Below, in pieces: positions 1,034-13,482 of a stretch of 36,674 bases of DNA. Origin of the DNA: an uncultured Bacilli bacterium (lineage in GTDB: Bacteria > Bacillota_I > Bacilli_A > RFN20 > CAG-449); NCBI GenBank assembly GCA_947632435.1, contig CANRPC010000016.1, forward strand, positions 1-36,674, written 5' to 3'. The notes under the pieces were generated by a model. That model saw nothing but the letters and a program-made list of their open reading frames with translations. It did not search any database and was not told where the DNA came from. Numbering within the stretch: position 1 is the first letter of the stretch; each line of letters opens with the position of its first letter. The translations under genes and the position numbers were made by a program.

Positions 1034-4000
1034 ATGGCGTATACACAAGAAGATTATTTAAAAGCACTTCAAAGAATGCGAAATAATTACCAAAATAATG
1101 GTAATGCTTTAATCGATACAAGAGATGATTCTACCTATGTTGGAGAAGAATTATCTTCTTTTGCTTACATGGATACGCCAACTCCTAAAATGGTTAATAA
1201 TGATTTAGAAGATTATAAAAAAAATAGAAATGGTTGGCAAAGAACTATGGATACGCTCGAAGAAGGGCGTAGCAATGTTGTAAAAGGAGCACTCAATTTT
1301 TTAGATTCTATTGGAGATTTTTTTATTGGTGCATTAGGAGAAGTTGGTTCATGGTTTGGAGGTGATTCTCAATGGGCGGAAGATGCCATACAATATGATT
1401 GGGTAAGTCAAGCAAATGAATCCATATCTATATTAAATCCGTTTGACATTTTATCAGGAGATGTTTTTTCCACAGATTATTGGAAAGAATACGGAGAAAT
1501 TTTTAAAAGTCCAAAAAAAGCACAAGAAAGAGAACAACAATTACATCAGGGATCATGGATTTCAAATACCAATGAAGGATTTCAAAAAGGATATCAAAAT
1601 GTTACTGAGGGAATTGGTGAATTACTTCCAAGCATTGCAGTTGCAGGATTAACAGGTGGGTCATCATTATGGGCTCAAGCTGCTGTTCAAGGTGGAATTG
1701 CAACTGTTAGAACCGCAGGACAATCTACAGAAACAGCTTTACAAGATGGTGCAGATTTACATGGAGCAATGAGATATGGATTAGCTAAAGGAGCTATATC
1801 TGGAGTGCTTACAAGTGCAACAATTGGAATCGGAGGTTCTGTACTATCAAAAAGTGGGCAAGGAGTAGTTTCTAAACTTTCTGGAAAAATTGGAGAAAAA
1901 ATAGGTGGATTATTTACTAATAGTTCTACTGCAGAAGTAGTAGCAACTAAAGTTACAGAAATATTTTTTAGAGCAGGAATAGATTCATCAAGTGCAGGTG
2001 CTCAAACACTAATAGATCCAGTGATAAAACAAATAACTTATGATAGTGAAGCAATTCAAAATGCCTATGGTTCAGATGAAGCAATTCAAAATACATTAGC
2101 TAATATGGGGAATGCAATGTTACAAGCTGGAATTACAAGTGCAATTGTGAGTTCAGGCAAAGAATTGACATCTAGAGCAAAAGCAGGTTCTTTTGAAAAA
2201 TATAAAGAGGATTTTTATTATAAAAAGCATTCAGCTGAAATAGCAGAAGATGCAACACGAGCTAACAAATATATAAAAGAATATGAAAAACTTTACAAAG
2301 AATATAAAAATAAAATTGGATTAGATAAAGGATATACTGTTAGTGAAGAAGAATTTATAAAGATTACAAATGATTATTCGAAAAAGATTTTAGCATTAGA
2401 AAATAAGTATAAAATTAATGATGTTTTAGAGCATGTTACAGATGGAAATACTTATGAAGGTACAATAAGTGAAAAACATGCAGATACTATTGGAAAAGCT
2501 AAAAATAATATTGAAAATTTAATTAATTCCAAAAAGAATCATGAAGTTGAAAAATCAATAGTGTTAGATTTCATGAAGAATAAAGGCTATAAATTCAATC
2601 AAGATTCTAATGGAAAATGGAGTGCATATAAAGAAACATCAACAACTAATTATGCAAATGAGCAAACAAATACTGAATTTTCTAATGGTACAATAAAAAT
2701 TAATTACAATGAAAAAAATGGAGCTGCAACATTAACAACTCCATATAATCCAAGCAGTCCAATTAACATTATTTCAAGCAATAATACTATATCTCTTTCA
2801 TTAAATGAACCTCATCAAATAGCAGCAATTATTGAAGCAATGCAACATGGCAATCAATCAAGATTACCAGATACTTTTATTTACGATGGAAAAAAGAGAG
2901 CAGTATCATTTGAAAATTTAAGAATAGCACAAAAAAATTTAGAAAACAAAGATAATGATTTATATGGCTTAAAAGATGGAGAATCTGCATTAAAATATTT
3001 AAATCATAACTATTCAGAAGATGAAATTCGATATTTAAATAATTCAAAATCAAAACTAATTTCTAATGATAATGAATTAAAGGAATATATTTATCAAGTT
3101 TACAATAATTATGATAAAGCAATTTGCCAAGCAATTATCGGCAGAATTGATAACAAAACATCAATAAGATTAAAAAATGATACAAAAACTGATTTTAATA
3201 ATTTTTCACTCGCTTATAATAAAGTATATTTAAAACACATAGAAAGAAAACATATTACAAATTCAAAAGAAAATATACCTGTAACATATAACGATTTATT
3301 AAAATATCCTTTTATTTTAAAAAATTATGATAAAGCATATATTGAAAATGGAAAATTAATAATCACAAAATGGATAGATGATAACTATCAAATTGCAGTT
3401 GAATTTTCTAAAAAAACTAAAAATTTAGTTTTAAATTCTATGTACAAAATAAAAAAAGAGAGGAATAAATCTCTCCCAACCTCTCATGATTCCAATGAAT
3501 CCCTACCAAGCTTTACGTCCGAAACGCCATCTGGGGTATCTTCTTCCTCTAAAAATATTATATTACAAAACGATGAGAAAAATACAACAAATATTGAAAA
3601 TAAATCTTTAAAAGCATACAATAAGATTAAGAAAAGAGAGCGTTTAGATGAGTTTAGAAGAATTCAAGAAGAAAGTTTGGGATTGCATGAAGAAGAGATA
3701 TCCGAATATCATGGCGGAAAACGAACGCTTGATGAAACTTTACGAAGACGACTTTCCAGAGCTTATGAGTTGGAATTGCACTCCAGAAGAAGCGGTCGGA
3801 ATTATACACAGCGGACTTTATTAAATCCTAAGACTAATACTAACGTACAAATACTTGAAAATGTTGATGGACAAGTATTCCATGACATTTTTGAAATAAA
3901 TAGAAAATATTTAAAAAATGGTGAATTAGTAGATTTACATGATAATTATGATGATTGTACTTGCTATTTAAGCGAAGATGGCTTAAGTGGTTTTGTTATT

Positions 4001-7000
4001 ACTAAAGAAGGAGACTTAGTTAGTGTTTTTAGTTTATCAAAAGAAGGTGGATTTTTAAAAACGATAGCTCCTATTGTTAAGGATAAAGCAAAAACACTAG
4101 ATTGCTATGCCTCACCACTTCAAGATTTACAAGTAATGTATTCCAAAATCTTCGGTTTTAAAACCGCTTCAATAATGGATTACAATATGGAATACGACCA
4201 TGATAACATTGCTAAAAATCATGATATGCCTCAAGTTGCATTTATGGTCAATACCGATAATAATGTTGAAACAAAACATTTTAATAAAGATCAATATGAT
4301 GAATCAAAAGCATATCAATTATCTTTTTTTGAAACAAATGATTTAAATATATCACCTAAAGGACATGATGTTCAATTGGTAAAAGATAGTGCTAATCTTC
4401 GAAAAGATAAAGTATATTCTATTATAAGTACAACAGGCATTTTAAAAAATACTTTAATTAACTTGAAAAGTATGTTACCTGATGGTGCAGAAATCAAATT
4501 AGTAGGAACAAAAAAGAACATCATTCAAAAAACTTTTGAAGAAATTAATTTATCAAAAGATATTACAACTGTAGTTGATAATTTAGTAAATACTATAATT
4601 AATTCTAAGGTTTATATAGATAAAGGAACAGAGGATGAAAAAGTATTTATCTTAAAAACATATGTTGATGATAGTTTAAAGAAAGATTTATTTAATTCTT
4701 TATATGATCTTATTGAGCATAATGGTTCAGAATCATATATTAAAAAATTATATGAAAATTATAAGTATATTGTTTCAAAATTAAATAAAGAAATAAAAGA
4801 ACAAAAAGCAAGAGGTCATTTTGCAAAAGTTTATACTAATTTAAAAAATAAATTACCAAAATATTTAAAGAAAGATTTAGAGATTACAAATGATAATGAA
4901 ATTTACCATCAATCTTCATTATTGTTAGATCCATTAATTTTATCTTCTAATAGCACGAATTCTTATTATGATGGTGGATTAAAACAAAAAATCTCTGATT
5001 TGCTTATAAAATATAAGCCTATTGAATTAGATGATAATGGTGAATTTAAAGAAGGCTTTTCTTTGTTTGATGAAAATATTAAAAATGAATATCAAGTTCT
5101 TTATGATATGCTTCCAGATTCAAAAGGAGAAAATTATTCATTAAATAGTGCTCAATTAAAGCAAGTTGTTAAACTTTTAAGAATGATATCATCTACTTCA
5201 AAATCTTCTATAGATACATTTAAGACAAAAATTGCACCATTTGCGATTGAAACAATTAATTCTATTAATAGTAATGGAAAAATGCCATTATTAAAAGGAT
5301 TAGAAGCACGCTGGGATGTTATTCGTGCGATGTTAGGTGATTCTTCTCTTTCTAATGAGATGACAAATCTATATCGACAAAAAAATGGAGAAGCAACATT
5401 AAAAGCAAGTTTAATTAAAGATAAAGTTTCTAAGTATATTAAAGATAATAAAATTACAAAAATTCTTCATAATAAAATTGATTTTTATGGAAATAAAATT
5501 CCTATTGGTTCTTTAGTAACAACATATGCTCAATTATTAACTCCTGCAGATTATGAACAAATAGATTTAGGTGGTTTATCCTATACAAATTATAAAGGAA
5601 AAAGAATTCAAGGATTACAAAACTTGACAAAAGGAAAAGCCGAAGAAATTAAGAATTATTTGGAGACAAATCTTCCAGAAGAAGCAAAAAAATATGCTAT
5701 TTTTATTAAAGATATTTTGAACAATGAATTAAAATCAGATTATGCAAATTTTTATAAAGAAAAATATGGAGTATCTGATGCTAATGTAATGGAAGATTAC
5801 ATGTTTTTATCAAGACAAATAGATAAATTATCAAGTGCAGAATCTTTATTAAGTGCTCCTAAACTTTTTGGCAATGAAAAAACAAGAGTTCGCAAATCAA
5901 GTGAAGCAATTAAAATAGTTGATTTAACTGATTCTTTAGAAAAATATGTCGATAATTTATATAACCAAATATATGTTATGCCTTTGTATAGAGATATTTT
6001 GCAAGTTTTGAATACAAAGATTTATCTAAATGGAAATAGAACAAATGTTATTTCTGCATTTAAAGATAAATACGGGGACAAAGGATTTGAAATATTAAAA
6101 AATACAATGGATGGTATAGCAGGTATACCAAGAAAAAATAATGCTTTTATTAGATTATTTAATGGATGGTATAAATCAACATTAGGAGCTAAATGGACAA
6201 CTATAATTAAACAAAACTTTTCTAAATTTATAAGCAATTTTACATTATCTAAAATTACACGTGCAGAAATAAAGTTAATGTTTGGATCTAAAGAATTTAA
6301 ATCTATATTAAATCAATTTGAAGAGTCAATAGGGGAATATATTACTAGAGAAAAAAGCACAAGAACAATTAAATATGAAAGTAATAATAATTTCATAAAT
6401 AAATTAGATAAATTTACTGATACATTTATGATTGGTATTTCCAAAATGGATAAAGCCACGATTAGAACAGGATTGTCTGCTTCTATTCTTTCTGCTTTTG
6501 ATAATGGGTTAGATTCAGCAGATGAAGATTTTTCCCAAGTTGTAATTGATAATTTTACTGAATTTGTTTTAACACAAATTAATAATGATGTATTAGGAAG
6601 AAGTGAATTAGGCGATACGAATATCGGACAAATATTTGTGTTTCAAGGTCCTGCAAGAGTTGCTTTAGCGACAATTAACAACAAAATTAGATTATGGCAT
6701 AAATATCATAATGTTTCTCAAAAAGAAATTGATGGTGCTATATCAAAAGCTACTGAAGAAGAAAAAGAAGCAGAAACTAAATACCTAAATGCAGAACAAG
6801 AACTTGAAAAAGCAATCGAATCCTTTGAAAATGAAAAAGAAAAAATCAAAAAAAATTCCTCACTTTCTGATGATAAAAAGAAAATATTAATTGAAGAAGC
6901 TCAAAAAGATGTTAAAGAAAAACAAGAAAAATTTTATGAATCTTCTGATAATTTACACATGAAAAAAGCTTCTACAAACAAAGCAAGAAATGATAAAAGA

Positions 7001-8167
7001 AATTTTTATAGATATCAAAATATGGGTGGCAAAAAAACTTTATTTTCTATTTTATCTGGATTGCTTGTAATGGGTGTTGGATTAACTGTAGTTAATGAAT
7101 TAGATCAACGTATTAAAGGAAAAAAGAAATGGGATGAATTTGATTTAGATAATGCTTTAAAACAAACTATTTACAATTCTTCTTTATCTTGGATTCCAAT
7201 TGTTAATACTGTTTCAAATTCAGTATTAAATGGATATGATGTTTCTTTGCCAAGTGCAACAATGGTTAATGATCTTACTGATATGCTTTCTAGTATTTAT
7301 GAATTATGCAAAGGTGATTTTAGTGATTCGAACATAAAAACAATTATTAGAAATATGATTAATGGTATTAGCACTGTAAGTGGTATTCCGTTTAAAACTA
7401 TCTATGATTACATTGTCGGTGCAATTACACAATTTGATCCTGTGACAGCTTTAAAAATTAAAAATATTTTTTACACACTTAATTCTGCAACTGCTACGAA
7501 AGCATACAATGAATACGTTTCTGAGAATTGGGAAAGTCAAGCAAAGGCACAATTGCTTTATAATTCAAAATATTTTAAAAGTGGTGTTATTGATGAAAAT
7601 ATCGCAAATGAAATTTATGTATTATCAAAGTATGGATATAATGTAATCCCAAAAAATACTTTAACTTCTTATGATGATGTTGATGGCACTAGAATAAATT
7701 TAACAAAAAAACAAATTGAAGAATTTTCTTTAACTTATAAAGAATCTTTAAATGAAGTTAATAATTTGCTTAAAATAAGTGATTATTCATCAAGCAATTA
7801 TGAAGTACAATCTAAGTTAATCAAAAAGCTTTATGATTCTTATTATGATTATGCAAAAGCAAAAATTACAGGTATAAGTCCAAGTAATAAGATTGCAAAT
7901 ATTTTATTACTTACTAATGGTAAACTTGGATTATCAAAATTTATAATTGGAATTAATGCCTTATCTGATATTACAGCTACAAAAAATGTTTCAAGAAAAG
8001 AATTAGTTTTAGCACAGATAAATAAAATGTCCAATTTTACAAAAGCTGAAAAATTACTTTTAGTATATTTTCTTGGTTTTTCTATAAGTGATAAAAATAA
8101 ACAAACATTAGCATCTTATCTTTCTAATTTAGGTGGTTCTTATAAGGAAATATTTAATGCCATATAA
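1034..8167 (+). CDS. Giant phage polyvalent virion/ejection-type protein with PBECR-like nuclease domain (2,377 aa)
   Basis: This is a very large multidomain protein of the phage polyvalent type, thought to travel in the virion and enter the host with the DNA. Seen in order: Gly/Ala-rich hydrophobic segments (residues about 87-109, 195-226, 249-273); a PBECR-like domain at about 715-850 with LKHIERKH (H735, H740) followed by a Ser/Thr-rich tail; an acetyltransferase-like module at about 945-1070 ending HDMPQVAFMVN; long helical regions resembling large polyvalent-associated domains; a charged coiled coil at about 1897-1980; and a membrane segment at about 2003-2022. The start follows AGGAGG (1023-1028). 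G+C rises sharply between the two enzyme-like modules, suggesting domain exchange. Domain names come from recognition of family motifs and the ejection role is inference. Confidence 0.75.
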   Translation: MAYTQEDYLKALQRMRNNYQNNGNALIDTRDDSTYVGEELSSFAYMDTPTPKMVNNDLEDYKKNRNGWQRTMDTLEEGRSNVVKGALNFLDSIGDFFIGALGEVGSWFGGDSQWAEDAIQYDWVSQANESISILNPFDILSGDVFSTDYWKEYGEIFKSPKKAQEREQQLHQGSWISNTNEGFQKGYQNVTEGIGELLPSIAVAGLTGGSSLWAQAAVQGGIATVRTAGQSTETALQDGADLHGAMRYGLAKGAISGVLTSATIGIGGSVLSKSGQGVVSKLSGKIGEKIGGLFTNSSTAEVVATKVTEIFFRAGIDSSSAGAQTLIDPVIKQITYDSEAIQNAYGSDEAIQNTLANMGNAMLQAGITSAIVSSGKELTSRAKAGSFEKYKEDFYYKKHSAEIAEDATRANKYIKEYEKLYKEYKNKIGLDKGYTVSEEEFIKITNDYSKKILALENKYKINDVLEHVTDGNTYEGTISEKHADTIGKAKNNIENLINSKKNHEVEKSIVLDFMKNKGYKFNQDSNGKWSAYKETSTTNYANEQTNTEFSNGTIKINYNEKNGAATLTTPYNPSSPINIISSNNTISLSLNEPHQIAAIIEAMQHGNQSRLPDTFIYDGKKRAVSFENLRIAQKNLENKDNDLYGLKDGESALKYLNHNYSEDEIRYLNNSKSKLISNDNELKEYIYQVYNNYDKAICQAIIGRIDNKTSIRLKNDTKTDFNNFSLAYNKVYLKHIERKHITNSKENIPVTYNDLLKYPFILKNYDKAYIENGKLIITKWIDDNYQIAVEFSKKTKNLVLNSMYKIKKERNKSLPTSHDSNESLPSFTSETPSGVSSSSKNIILQNDEKNTTNIENKSLKAYNKIKKRERLDEFRRIQEESLGLHEEEISEYHGGKRTLDETLRRRLSRAYELELHSRRSGRNYTQRTLLNPKTNTNVQILENVDGQVFHDIFEINRKYLKNGELVDLHDNYDDCTCYLSEDGLSGFVITKEGDLVSVFSLSKEGGFLKTIAPIVKDKAKTLDCYASPLQDLQVMYSKIFGFKTASIMDYNMEYDHDNIAKNHDMPQVAFMVNTDNNVETKHFNKDQYDESKAYQLSFFETNDLNISPKGHDVQLVKDSANLRKDKVYSIISTTGILKNTLINLKSMLPDGAEIKLVGTKKNIIQKTFEEINLSKDITTVVDNLVNTIINSKVYIDKGTEDEKVFILKTYVDDSLKKDLFNSLYDLIEHNGSESYIKKLYENYKYIVSKLNKEIKEQKARGHFAKVYTNLKNKLPKYLKKDLEITNDNEIYHQSSLLLDPLILSSNSTNSYYDGGLKQKISDLLIKYKPIELDDNGEFKEGFSLFDENIKNEYQVLYDMLPDSKGENYSLNSAQLKQVVKLLRMISSTSKSSIDTFKTKIAPFAIETINSINSNGKMPLLKGLEARWDVIRAMLGDSSLSNEMTNLYRQKNGEATLKASLIKDKVSKYIKDNKITKILHNKIDFYGNKIPIGSLVTTYAQLLTPADYEQIDLGGLSYTNYKGKRIQGLQNLTKGKAEEIKNYLETNLPEEAKKYAIFIKDILNNELKSDYANFYKEKYGVSDANVMEDYMFLSRQIDKLSSAESLLSAPKLFGNEKTRVRKSSEAIKIVDLTDSLEKYVDNLYNQIYVMPLYRDILQVLNTKIYLNGNRTNVISAFKDKYGDKGFEILKNTMDGIAGIPRKNNAFIRLFNGWYKSTLGAKWTTIIKQNFSKFISNFTLSKITRAEIKLMFGSKEFKSILNQFEESIGEYITREKSTRTIKYESNNNFINKLDKFTDTFMIGISKMDKATIRTGLSASILSAFDNGLDSADEDFSQVVIDNFTEFVLTQINNDVLGRSELGDTNIGQIFVFQGPARVALATINNKIRLWHKYHNVSQKEIDGAISKATEEEKEAETKYLNAEQELEKAIESFENEKEKIKKNSSLSDDKKKILIEEAQKDVKEKQEKFYESSDNLHMKKASTNKARNDKRNFYRYQNMGGKKTLFSILSGLLVMGVGLTVVNELDQRIKGKKKWDEFDLDNALKQTIYNSSLSWIPIVNTVSNSVLNGYDVSLPSATMVNDLTDMLSSIYELCKGDFSDSNIKTIIRNMINGISTVSGIPFKTIYDYIVGAITQFDPVTALKIKNIFYTLNSATATKAYNEYVSENWESQAKAQLLYNSKYFKSGVIDENIANEIYVLSKYGYNVIPKNTLTSYDDVDGTRINLTKKQIEEFSLTYKESLNEVNNLLKISDYSSSNYEVQSKLIKKLYDSYYDYAKAKITGISPSNKIANILLLTNGKLGLSKFIIGINALSDITATKNVSRKELVLAQINKMSNFTKAEKLLLVYFLGFSISDKNKQTLASYLSNLGGSYKEIFNAI

Positions 8168-8653: not shown

Positions 8654-10930
8654 TTATAATAAATTTTGTTTCTTTTTTACCGCAAAAAAATTTTTCCATG
8701 AATTTTTCTTTAGCATTTTATCTACATTAAAAATATTACAATCCGATGGATTAATTGTTTCTAAATCTTTCCACGAAATAGGAAATGATATTGCTCCTTC
8801 TTTTTTTGCTCTTAAAGAATAAGGAGCAACACAAGTAGAACCTTTTTTATTTCTAAGATAATCAATAAATATTTTATCTTTTCTTTTAATTTTATTCATG
8901 TTTGTTATAAATAAATTTGGGTATTTATTTTCCATCATAAGCGCAAAATTATGAGCAAAAGAAGTTAAAACATCCCAATTTTTTACCTCATTAAAAGGAA
9001 CAATAATATGATATCCTTTATTACCACTTGTTTTTAAAAAAGCTTGCAAATTAATTTTTTTTAACTCTAATTTAACTTTTTTTACTCCAAGTTTTAATTT
9101 ATCTAATGATAATTCTTCATCAGGATCTAAATCAAAAATTAAATAATCTGGTGTATTAATTTTTTGATATTCAAAATTACAAATGTGAAATTCAATAGAG
9201 CCATATTGTACTTCATTATATATACCCATTTCATTTAAAATAGCAAAATATTGTTTCTTATTTGAATTTTTATCTTTTAAATCAAAAATTACTATTCCTT
9301 CTTTTTCTTTATCTGGATGTCGCTTTAAAAAAACATTTTTATTACATCTTAAAACAGATAAAGGTCTATTTATAATATATGGCAACATTTTTGCTGCAAC
9401 CTTTTTATAATAATCAAAAATATCTTCTTTAGTAATTTTATTTTTTGAGAAAACAATTCTATTAGGATTAGTTATTGTAATAGTTTCTAAATCATCAATG
9501 CTTTTATCTTTTCTTAAAGTTTTAAAACTAGCTTGTCTTATCTTATTTGATGAAGTAAACTCTGAATATTCAACTTCCGCTAAAAAAGAAGGTTTTAAAA
9601 AATTAATATCTTTAAAATCAGCATCATAAAAAGGAGATTGATTTATTTTATTAGTCTTAAATTCTGAAATTAATTCTAAGGAATTTTCTTGATTAAATCC
9701 AGTTCCAACTTTTCCAATATATATTAAATTGTTATTAATATATTTTCCCAAATAAAGTGCTTTAATTTGCTTATTTTTCTTTTGAGATAATTCATATCCA
9801 CCAATTATAAATTCATCAGATTTCCGACATTTTATTTTAATCCAAGAATCTGTTCTTTTTCCAACATAATAAGAATTTATTTTTTTTGCAATTATGCCTT
9901 CTAAATTTAATTCTTTGACTTTTTGAAATAATTCTTTACCTTTATCATATATATATTTACTACATTTAATATTTTCTGGGGAATTTTTTAATATTTTATC
10001 TAATATTTTTTTCCTTTCTATTAAGGTTTTATTTCGTAAATCATTTCCTTCATAAGCCAATATATCAAAAACCATATAACATAAAAAAGTATCATCTTTT
10101 GATTTTAAAGCTTGTTGTAAAAGTGAAAAATTACTTTTTCCATATTCATCAATATAAATTATTTCACCATCTAAAATTAAAGTTTTATTTTTAAAATACT
10201 TTTTCAAATTAGAAGCTATAGTTTCAAATTTTTTGGTGTAATTTTGATAATTTCTTGTATATAAATTTACATTATTTTTTTCTATTTCCGCAATGATACG
10301 ATAACCATCATACTTTAATTCATAAATCCAATCTTTTCCAATTGGTACATCTTCTTTTAATGTTGCAAGTTGTACATTTTCTTTATGAAATGGATTTTTT
10401 ATTTCCTTATTTTTTAAAATACTTTTTTTAATATTTTTTATTAATGATGTTTTTTTACAATATTTATCTTGTTCTTTTATTAATAACCAATTATTTTCTT
10501 TCATCTTAATAAGTGCAAATTGTCCTTTTAATTTCTCACCCTTAATAATAAATTTTAAATTTCCAGCTTTTAAACTTTTTTTTACATCATTTAAAGGAAT
10601 CCAAAACCCTGAATCAGAAAGTGTAACTTTACCTCCACCATATTGACCTTTTGGAATATCACCTTCAAAAAGTAAATAATCAAATGGATGATCCTCTACT
10701 TTTACAGCAAGCCTTTTATCTTTAGGATTTAATGAAGGTCCTTTAGGAATTGCCCAACTTAATAAAATTCCATCAAATTCTAGACGTAAATCAAAATGGT
10801 CTTTACTTGCTTCATGAAATTGTAAAGAATAATTAAGTTTTTTAGGATTTGATTTTCTTTTTTTACCTTTTGGTTCATTTGTTTTGTTAAAATCTCTTTT
10901 GTTTTTATATGTTTTTAATTTATCTTCCAT
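8654..10930 (-). CDS. ligD: Multifunctional NHEJ DNA ligase LigD (phosphoesterase-ligase-polymerase)
   Basis: LigD seals double-strand breaks with Ku. Three domains are visible: 3'-phosphoesterase (about 10-150) with H39, H45, D47, R49, R73, H81 and Y85, in the spacing known for the family; ATP-dependent ligase (about 185-465) with catalytic K206 in KYDGYR and later motif EGIIAKK; primase-polymerase (about 480-750) with metal-binding DLDP (D600, D602) and KTSGNKGYH. The order matches Pseudomonas LigD, not Mycobacterium. I chose the ATG at 10930 because MEDKLKTYKNKRDF aligns with usual LigD N-termini and a TATAAT on this strand (10966-10961) would start RNA near 10954. An in-frame ATG at 10987 would add 19 residues. 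Neither start has a good ribosome site. It is divergent from ku. Confidence 0.95.
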   Translation of the reverse strand: MEDKLKTYKNKRDFNKTNEPKGKKRKSNPKKLNYSLQFHEASKDHFDLRLEFDGILLSWAIPKGPSLNPKDKRLAVKVEDHPFDYLLFEGDIPKGQYGGGKVTLSDSGFWIPLNDVKKSLKAGNLKFIIKGEKLKGQFALIKMKENNWLLIKEQDKYCKKTSLIKNIKKSILKNKEIKNPFHKENVQLATLKEDVPIGKDWIYELKYDGYRIIAEIEKNNVNLYTRNYQNYTKKFETIASNLKKYFKNKTLILDGEIIYIDEYGKSNFSLLQQALKSKDDTFLCYMVFDILAYEGNDLRNKTLIERKKILDKILKNSPENIKCSKYIYDKGKELFQKVKELNLEGIIAKKINSYYVGKRTDSWIKIKCRKSDEFIIGGYELSQKKNKQIKALYLGKYINNNLIYIGKVGTGFNQENSLELISEFKTNKINQSPFYDADFKDINFLKPSFLAEVEYSEFTSSNKIRQASFKTLRKDKSIDDLETITITNPNRIVFSKNKITKEDIFDYYKKVAAKMLPYIINRPLSVLRCNKNVFLKRHPDKEKEGIVIFDLKDKNSNKKQYFAILNEMGIYNEVQYGSIEFHICNFEYQKINTPDYLIFDLDPDEELSLDKLKLGVKKVKLELKKINLQAFLKTSGNKGYHIIVPFNEVKNWDVLTSFAHNFALMMENKYPNLFITNMNKIKRKDKIFIDYLRNKKGSTCVAPYSLRAKKEGAISFPISWKDLETINPSDCNIFNVDKMLKKNSWKNFFAVKKKQNLL

Positions 10931-11007
10931 AATACTATTATGAGAAAAAGAAATTTTTTTATTATAAAAACAAATTGTTATAAGCATACTAATTTTGAGG
11001 TTTATTT

Positions 11008-11793
11008 ATGGCATATAGTTTTAAAACAAATCTAAGTTTTGGTTTTGTATATATTCCAGTTACATTACATTTAGTTGCAAAAGATAATAAAATTTCTTTT
11101 CGATTATTTGATAAAAAAACTAAATCTAAAATTCAATATAAAAAAATTTCAGAAAATAATTCTAAAAATGAAGTCAAAAATGAAGATATCGTTAAAGGTT
11201 ATGAATATGAAGATGGAAAATATGTTTTATTAGAGGATGAAGATTTTGAAAAAATAAAAACCCCAAAAGATAAAAATATATCTATTGAAGGTTTTATAAA
11301 TTTAAATGAAATTAATCCTTTATATTATGATAAATCTTATTACATATATCCAACAGGTGCAATTAAGGCATATACTCTTTTAGTAAAAGCTTTAACTGAA
11401 ACCAAAAAAGCAGGTTTTGGTAAAACTGTACTTGGATTTAAAGAAAATTTAGTTATCGTTAGGCCACAAGAAGATTATCTTATTTTATCAACTTTATTTT
11501 TTAAAGATGAAATAAAAGACTATCCTGAAACTATAGAAAAAGTTAGCATTAACCCTTCAGAATTAAAACTTGCAAAATTATTAATTTCAGAAATGTCTCA
11601 AAAATTTAATATTTCACAATATGAAGATAATTATCAAAAAAAGATTGAAGCTTTAATTGATAAAAAAATTAAAGGAAAGAAAATCTTATTACCTAAAAAA
11701 CAAGAACCAGTTCAATTAATGGATCTTATGGATGCTTTAAAAACAAGTATAAATCTAGCGGAAAAGCAAAAAAGGAGTAGAAAAACTAGCTAA
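11008..11793 (+). CDS. ku: NHEJ DNA end-binding protein Ku
   Basis: Bacterial Ku forms a homodimeric ring on broken DNA ends and recruits LigD. The 261-residue length and the whole pattern fit: N-terminal SFKTNLSFGFVYIPV, the RLFDKKTKSKIQYKK strand, the ED-rich segment GYEYEDGKYVLLEDEDFEKI, and the central VLGFKENLVIVRP. A short basic C-terminal tail (KQKRSRKTS) matches the usual lysine-rich extension. The start has GAGG nine bases upstream. It is divergent from ligD, with about 77 bases between the chosen starts. Its last eight bases overlap the end of the convergent membrane protein gene, and there is no terminator between them. Confidence 0.95.
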   Translation: MAYSFKTNLSFGFVYIPVTLHLVAKDNKISFRLFDKKTKSKIQYKKISENNSKNEVKNEDIVKGYEYEDGKYVLLEDEDFEKIKTPKDKNISIEGFINLNEINPLYYDKSYYIYPTGAIKAYTLLVKALTETKKAGFGKTVLGFKENLVIVRPQEDYLILSTLFFKDEIKDYPETIEKVSINPSELKLAKLLISEMSQKFNISQYEDNYQKKIEALIDKKIKGKKILLPKKQEPVQLMDLMDALKTSINLAEKQKRSRKTS

Positions 11794-13138: not shown

Positions 13139-13405
13139 TTAAAGTATTTGAGCAAAAATTACAACAAGTAAAATAATGAATAGAATAATTGCCCAAGATA
13201 TCAAAATATATATTCTTTCATTTTTCATTAAAAAATTATATATAATTTTAAAGATTGATACTTCTTCTTCTAAATCATAATTATCAATTAATCCATCAGA
13301 ATAAAATACTTTATCTTTGTATTCACAAGAAAAAGAAATCTTAATTTTGATTCCATCAACTTTTAAAATATCATTCTTTTTATTTATATAAGTTTTTTTA
13401 TCCAT
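13139..13405 (-). CDS. Small tail-anchored membrane protein (88 aa), unknown
   Basis: The N-terminal 60 residues are soluble and charged, with a strand-like segment (VDGIKIKISFSCEYKD) and an acidic patch (DNYDLEEE). The last 24 residues are one very hydrophobic helix, so the protein is probably anchored by its C-terminus. AAGGAG sits about ten bases before the ATG. I recognise no family. It is separated from the two membrane protein genes downstream by about 220 AT-rich bases, so it may be its own unit. Its upstream region carries a consensus -35 followed by a ten-G tract, described separately, which could make expression variable. Confidence 0.65.
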   Translation of the reverse strand: MDKKTYINKKNDILKVDGIKIKISFSCEYKDKVFYSDGLIDNYDLEEEVSIFKIIYNFLMKNERIYILISWAIILFIILLVVIFAQIL

Positions 13406-13439
13406 GATAGTATTCTCCTTAAAATAATATTGTAAAAAA

Positions 13440-13482
13440 TATCTTTCAATTTATTTTCCCCCCCCCCGTACATATTTGTCAA
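13440..13482 (-). promoter_or_regulatory. Candidate promoter with G-tract spacer, 88-aa gene
   Basis: TTGACA at 13482-13477 is followed by nine bases, ten G and then AAAATAAAT. The best -10 there (AATAAA, four of six) sits 21 bases from the -35 with ten G, and would be at the ideal 17 with six G. A separate -10-like TACAAT about 42 bases after the -35 lacks a good -35. Functional use is inferred. Confidence 0.35.
13458..13467 (-). repeat. Homopolymer tract of 10 G (minus strand), possible phase-variation tract
   Basis: Ten C residues in a row on the plus strand, in a very AT-rich gap. I saw no other G or C run of this length in the window. On the minus strand it lies 53 bases upstream of the ATG of the 88-residue protein and begins nine bases after a perfect TTGACA (13482-13477). 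Tracts like this slip during replication. An assembly or sequencing error in the run length is possible. Confidence 0.8.

Follow-up and report, generated by a model that had tools for sequence, protein, structure and literature searches.

The ten-G tract upstream of a gene for an 88-residue membrane protein is probably the length-variable spacer of a sigma-70-type promoter that switches this gene, as judged from sequence features. The window, meaning the whole 36,674-nucleotide stretch of DNA that was analysed, is one contig of a low-GC host genome of 1.68 Mb in 42 contigs. The same arrangement was found at several more genes of the host and in roughly one-tenth of the sampled genomes of the class, so the window locus is very likely one of a set. 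We can read that genome-wide set with high confidence, as a matter of judgement, as a collection of poly-G switches.

All elements of the window locus lie on the minus strand. A perfect TTGACA (-35 element, 13477..13482) is followed by nine bases, AATATGTAC (13468..13476), that form the first part of the spacer, and then by ten G (13458..13467), the presumed slippage element, whose length may be inexact in the draft assembly. Downstream come AAAATAAATTGAAAGATATTTTTTACAATATTATTTT, a Shine-Dalgarno-like AAGGAG (13415..13420), and the ATG (13405) of the 88-codon open reading frame. The TTGACA, nine bases and ten G, pointing toward a small membrane protein, are what the original prediction had described, and this was confirmed. 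The strand reads AAAATAAATTG after the ten G at 13467-13458. The candidate -10 element, GAAAAT (13453..13458), matches the consensus at four of six positions and overlaps the tract by one base, its first base being the last G. The homopolymer sits between the -35 and this candidate -10 (TTGACA-N9-G10-AAAAT), with a spacing of 18 at G10 and of 17 at G9, and TTGACA-18-GAAAAT (13482-13453, 10/12) gave the highest promoter score of the region. The claim that the tract is followed by the only nearby -10-like sequence proved too strong. A tract-independent promoter-like site, TTGAAA-17-TATTTT (13421..13449, minus strand, 9/12), lies downstream, and TACAAT is a further -10-like sequence downstream of the tract. 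Shuffles of this AT-rich region contained 11.7 promoter-like sites on average, and matches of 9/12 are common there, so TTGAAA-17-TATTTT alone means little. The rarity claimed for the G run held: GGGGGGGG is unique within the window and had 0 occurrences in dinucleotide shuffles; no second run of eight G is present in the window and none was produced by the shuffles.

The presumed switched gene (13139..13405, minus strand) follows the AAGGAG and encodes a protein with one C-terminal hydrophobic segment, which fits the pattern of surface targets described below. The protein is an orphan in the genomes, plasmid records and Pfam families searched. A search of 40 related genomes returned neither a relative of the protein nor an orthologue of the window locus; plasmid records likewise contained no relative, and none of the Pfam families scored above the cut-off. 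Elsewhere in the window, a three-domain LigD (777 amino acids) adjoins Ku at 8654-11793, which makes up a bacterial end-joining repair pair in a genome of ∼1.7 Mb. A 2377-residue protein at 1034-8167 contains a PBECR3 nuclease-like domain at residues 706-812 and no other Pfam match, and is possibly part of a mobile element.

The host genome contains 13 runs of seven or more G: one of seven, none of eight, four of nine, seven of ten and one of eleven. The gap at eight, together with 12 of the 13 being 9-11 long as against eight runs of exactly six, sets the long tracts apart as a separate class. Seven of the 13, including that of the window, carry a perfect TTGACA exactly nine bases before the tract, a sequence with a chance of 0.0003 per position. 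TATAAT, TATTAT or TATTTT directly follows the tract in five of these seven. The two exceptions are the tract of the window, with AAAATA, and the single seven-G case; the window tract is therefore the only host tract of nine or more G that has a perfect TTGACA and no TAT directly after it. The genes behind four of the five TAT-box promoters encode a DUF4190-like small membrane protein, a 150-amino-acid protein without a Pfam match, an Acyl_transf_3-family acyltransferase and a lipoprotein whose reading frame is truncated by a contig end; the fifth promoter leads to a contig end. At locus L043, near a contig end, the lipoprotein frame after TTGACA-N9-G10-TATAAT was seen by eye to turn markedly GC-rich within ∼60 bases; a horizontal origin or an assembly join is possible there.

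Other host tracts lie within reading frames. In a gene for a secreted (surface) protein, G10 stops the frame at 111 residues and a 675-codon continuation follows in another frame; G9 leaves the frame of a family-2 glycosyltransferase gene open, and a further tract is located inside a helix-turn-helix gene. In pglX of a BREX locus (BrxC, PglX, PglZ; L034, G000:C1:102300-110300), G11 at L034:3985-3995 breaks the frame after ∼616 residues, whereas the tract of another species is G12 and the frame stays open for 867 codons. The host genome thus presents the features of a set of contingency loci (a phasome): multiple tracts, most of them at genes for surface or defence functions, located in promoters as well as in reading frames. 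At the BREX locus, more C-terminal pglX pieces follow, several of which end in DDWDSFETSWDFKKHPLI; these shared ends suggest that specificity domains may be exchanged in addition to the switching of the frame. At L039, inspected by eye only, a G10 tract at 4076 (minus strand) lies in a 23-codon frame that has a ribosome-binding site; downstream are a hairpin with a T run and, beyond it, the gene for a 629-amino-acid secreted protein. The 23-codon frame is possibly a frame-dependent leader peptide.

The arrangement recurs well beyond the host. Runs of nine G were present in 14 of the 18 genomes of the family. The 66 long tracts of the family were picked by G9 alone, without regard to TTGACA, and form an unbiased set; a perfect TTGACA was found within 20 bases of 26 and at exactly nine bases in 19, compared with an expectation of 0.02 for a single position. 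Outside the family, class loci were selected with the pattern TTGACA-N7..11-G8, which itself limits their TTGACA distances. This pattern occurred in 41 of 395 class genomes and the reversed-pattern control in none of the 395. The nine-base lead was common to 46 of the 70 perfect-TTGACA promoters collected, and the -10 abutted the tract in 60 of 77 promoter-like cases. Scanning one genome per species returned the fuller motif, among the matches listed, mainly from Bacillota, many of them gut assemblies, together with single cases in many other phyla. The host itself was placed, tentatively, in class Bacilli on the basis of the records carrying the motif and of weak DNA similarity. One locus outside the host, L235 (G400:C6:5000-24900), holds five copies of TTGACA-N10-G9-TATAAT within ∼15 kb, each preceding a related secreted protein (MKNLKMFAI...), and by its sequence looks like a phase-variable surface-protein array.

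The targets of these promoters are biased toward the cell surface. By simple hydropathy rules, the first open reading frame with a ribosome-binding site after the promoter was called secreted, lipoprotein or membrane in 51 of 61 cases, compared with 29 of 72 for the other open reading frames in the same loci (Fisher, 4e-7). DUF4190-like small membrane proteins were noted by eye as repeated targets in distant families.

Tract lengths differ between species and between gene copies, the two levels at which they were compared, and promoter tracts overall span G8-13. An orthologous lipoprotein promoter in three species of one genus has G10, G10 and G12 within flanks that are 90-98% identical; a second promoter family, whose flanks are less alike, has G13, G13 and G11. 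Within a single genome, paralogous promoters sharing the same lead carry G9, G9, G10 and G10, and the two members of a paralogous coding pair carry G9 and G10. Spacing in the 77 poly-G promoter cases was mostly 18 or 19, with 19 in 30 of them. Promoters lacking a G run in the same DNA, small in number, had spacings of 16 (one), 17 (five), 18 (six) and 19 (none). The frequent spacing of 19 is as expected if many poly-G promoters were caught in a low state.

These data are consistent with a model in which a sigma-70-type promoter reads leftwards into the 88-residue membrane-protein gene and the G run gains or loses single bases by replication slippage. The distance between the -35 and GAAAAT would shift accordingly, to 16 at G8, 17 at G9, 18 at G10 and 19 at G11. 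For a TATAAT abutting the tract, the arrangement of the sister promoters, it would be 19 at G10 and 18 at G9. Cells of one clone would then transcribe the gene unequally, and the locus would be one of the poly-G contingency loci spread over the genome, in promoter spacers and reading frames, mainly of surface genes. We infer slippage within the population, the dependence of transcription on length, the use of this -10 at the window and which tract length would be ON. The phase switch proposed in the original prediction is strongly supported, as a class, by the recurrence of the anatomy in genome, family and class, by the empty reversed control, by the mostly surface-related targets and by the differing lengths of orthologous tracts; at the window locus itself it is weakened by the 4/6 match of the -10 and by the tract-independent alternative promoter. 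In the sister promoters, a good -10 is placed such that one-base changes carry the spacing through ∼17. Compared with them, the window promoter has a -10 matching at four of six positions and a spacing of 18 at G10. Given its poorer -10, this locus may represent a low-level member of the set, or one in decay.

In the stronger form of that idea, the switch has already decayed: the -10 has been lost (AAAATA in place of the TATAAT of the sisters), and the gene is read from TTGAAA-17-TATTTT or not at all. The window tract does stand alone among the host tracts of nine or more G with TTGACA in having no abutting TAT, and the alternative site scores 9/12. However, the -35 is still perfect and at its canonical distance, and GAAAAT, well spaced at 18 (17 at G9), retains the A of position 2 and the T of position 6; the score of the alternative site is of a kind that the shuffled region yields readily. 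We consider such decay unlikely. The contribution of the tract could also be of a different nature, with a regulator binding the G run and the -35 as an operator of fixed length, for example by untwisting a 19-base spacer, and with no slippage element at all. The constant nine-base lead and tract lengths of mostly 9-10 would suit an operator, as would the AC that precedes the tracts. In the genus of the host (g1; G000-G002), AC precedes 31 of 35 long G tracts and TA follows 25 of 35, in promoters and coding regions alike and exemplified by the window at 13456-13469; no such preference is seen at the G3-G6 runs of this genus, and long G tracts in other families have mostly pyrimidine flanks. 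A fixed operator is at odds with lengths that vary from 8 to 13, also between orthologues and paralogues with conserved flanks, and with like tracts setting the frame inside pglX, surface protein and glycosyltransferase genes. The motif also recurs in distant families with unlike leads, and this explanation appears very unlikely.

Two-colour sequencing chemistry is known to generate long G runs, and such an artefact or a collapsed repeat in the assembly might in principle account for the tract. Contig ends are indeed enriched in tracts of the family (six within 300 bases, 1.55 expected), but base-calling cannot produce an exact promoter geometry and a strand bias. Orthologous tracts are conserved in separate assemblies and the reversed control is zero, making an artefact highly improbable. 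The same excess at contig ends was considered as a sign of length mixtures causing assembly heterogeneity and was dropped as only modest. Loss of mismatch repair as the cause of slippage was also dropped, because each of the 18 family genomes has MutS; switching would then rest on the tract itself.

A slippage-tuned promoter therefore remains our preferred reading, and the mechanism itself is already known. Poly-G spacing switches in other bacteria, to which the original prediction had appealed, are established in Neisseria and Treponema. In porA of Neisseria meningitidis, surface expression is high at 11G, ∼2-fold lower at 10G and ∼13-fold lower at 9G (PMC3639595). The likeness lies in a poly-G between -35 and -10, in one-base changes that grade expression and in a surface protein as target. 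porA is a single well-studied gene of a Gram-negative pathogen, whereas here, in a Bacilli-like bacterium, the -35 is a perfect TTGACA and the arrangement occurs at seven loci of one genome. The tp0126 gene of Treponema pallidum also has poly-G between -35 and -10 and is transcribed best at a spacing of 17 (PMC7864442); it encodes a spirochaete OmpW-like outer-membrane protein, in contrast to the small orphan membrane protein in a Bacilli-like genome described here. Poly-G upstream of surface genes is also shared with tprL and tprE,G,J of T. pallidum, where its length affects transcription, and that of tprL varies in vivo (PMC7864442). In Bifidobacterium breve, a Gram-positive gut commensal, a replication-slippage switch is reported to turn sortase pili on and off (PMC9187656). 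The window element is probably a slippage-tuned promoter of the porA/tp0126 kind.

Reports of poly-G promoter switches in Bacilli or in uncultured gut bacteria were not found in the open-access literature searched. We tentatively propose, as a possibility somewhat short of even, that the stereotyped switch (TTGACA, nine bases, 8-13 G and an abutting TATAAT) constitutes a widespread and largely unreported multi-gene system of surface variation in uncultured gut Bacillota. In the genus of the host, the AC...TA border that tracts share in promoters and coding regions hints in addition at a sequence-dependent way to make or keep them. It is the breadth among uncultured Bacillota that gives the finding its interest. 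Metagenome reads that already exist contain the tract lengths, so many of the loci are testable without culture. The geometry is present in about one-tenth of the sampled class genomes, mostly at genes for small membrane proteins, secreted proteins and lipoproteins, which suggests that diversification of the surface within a clone may occur by this route in many uncultured gut bacteria.
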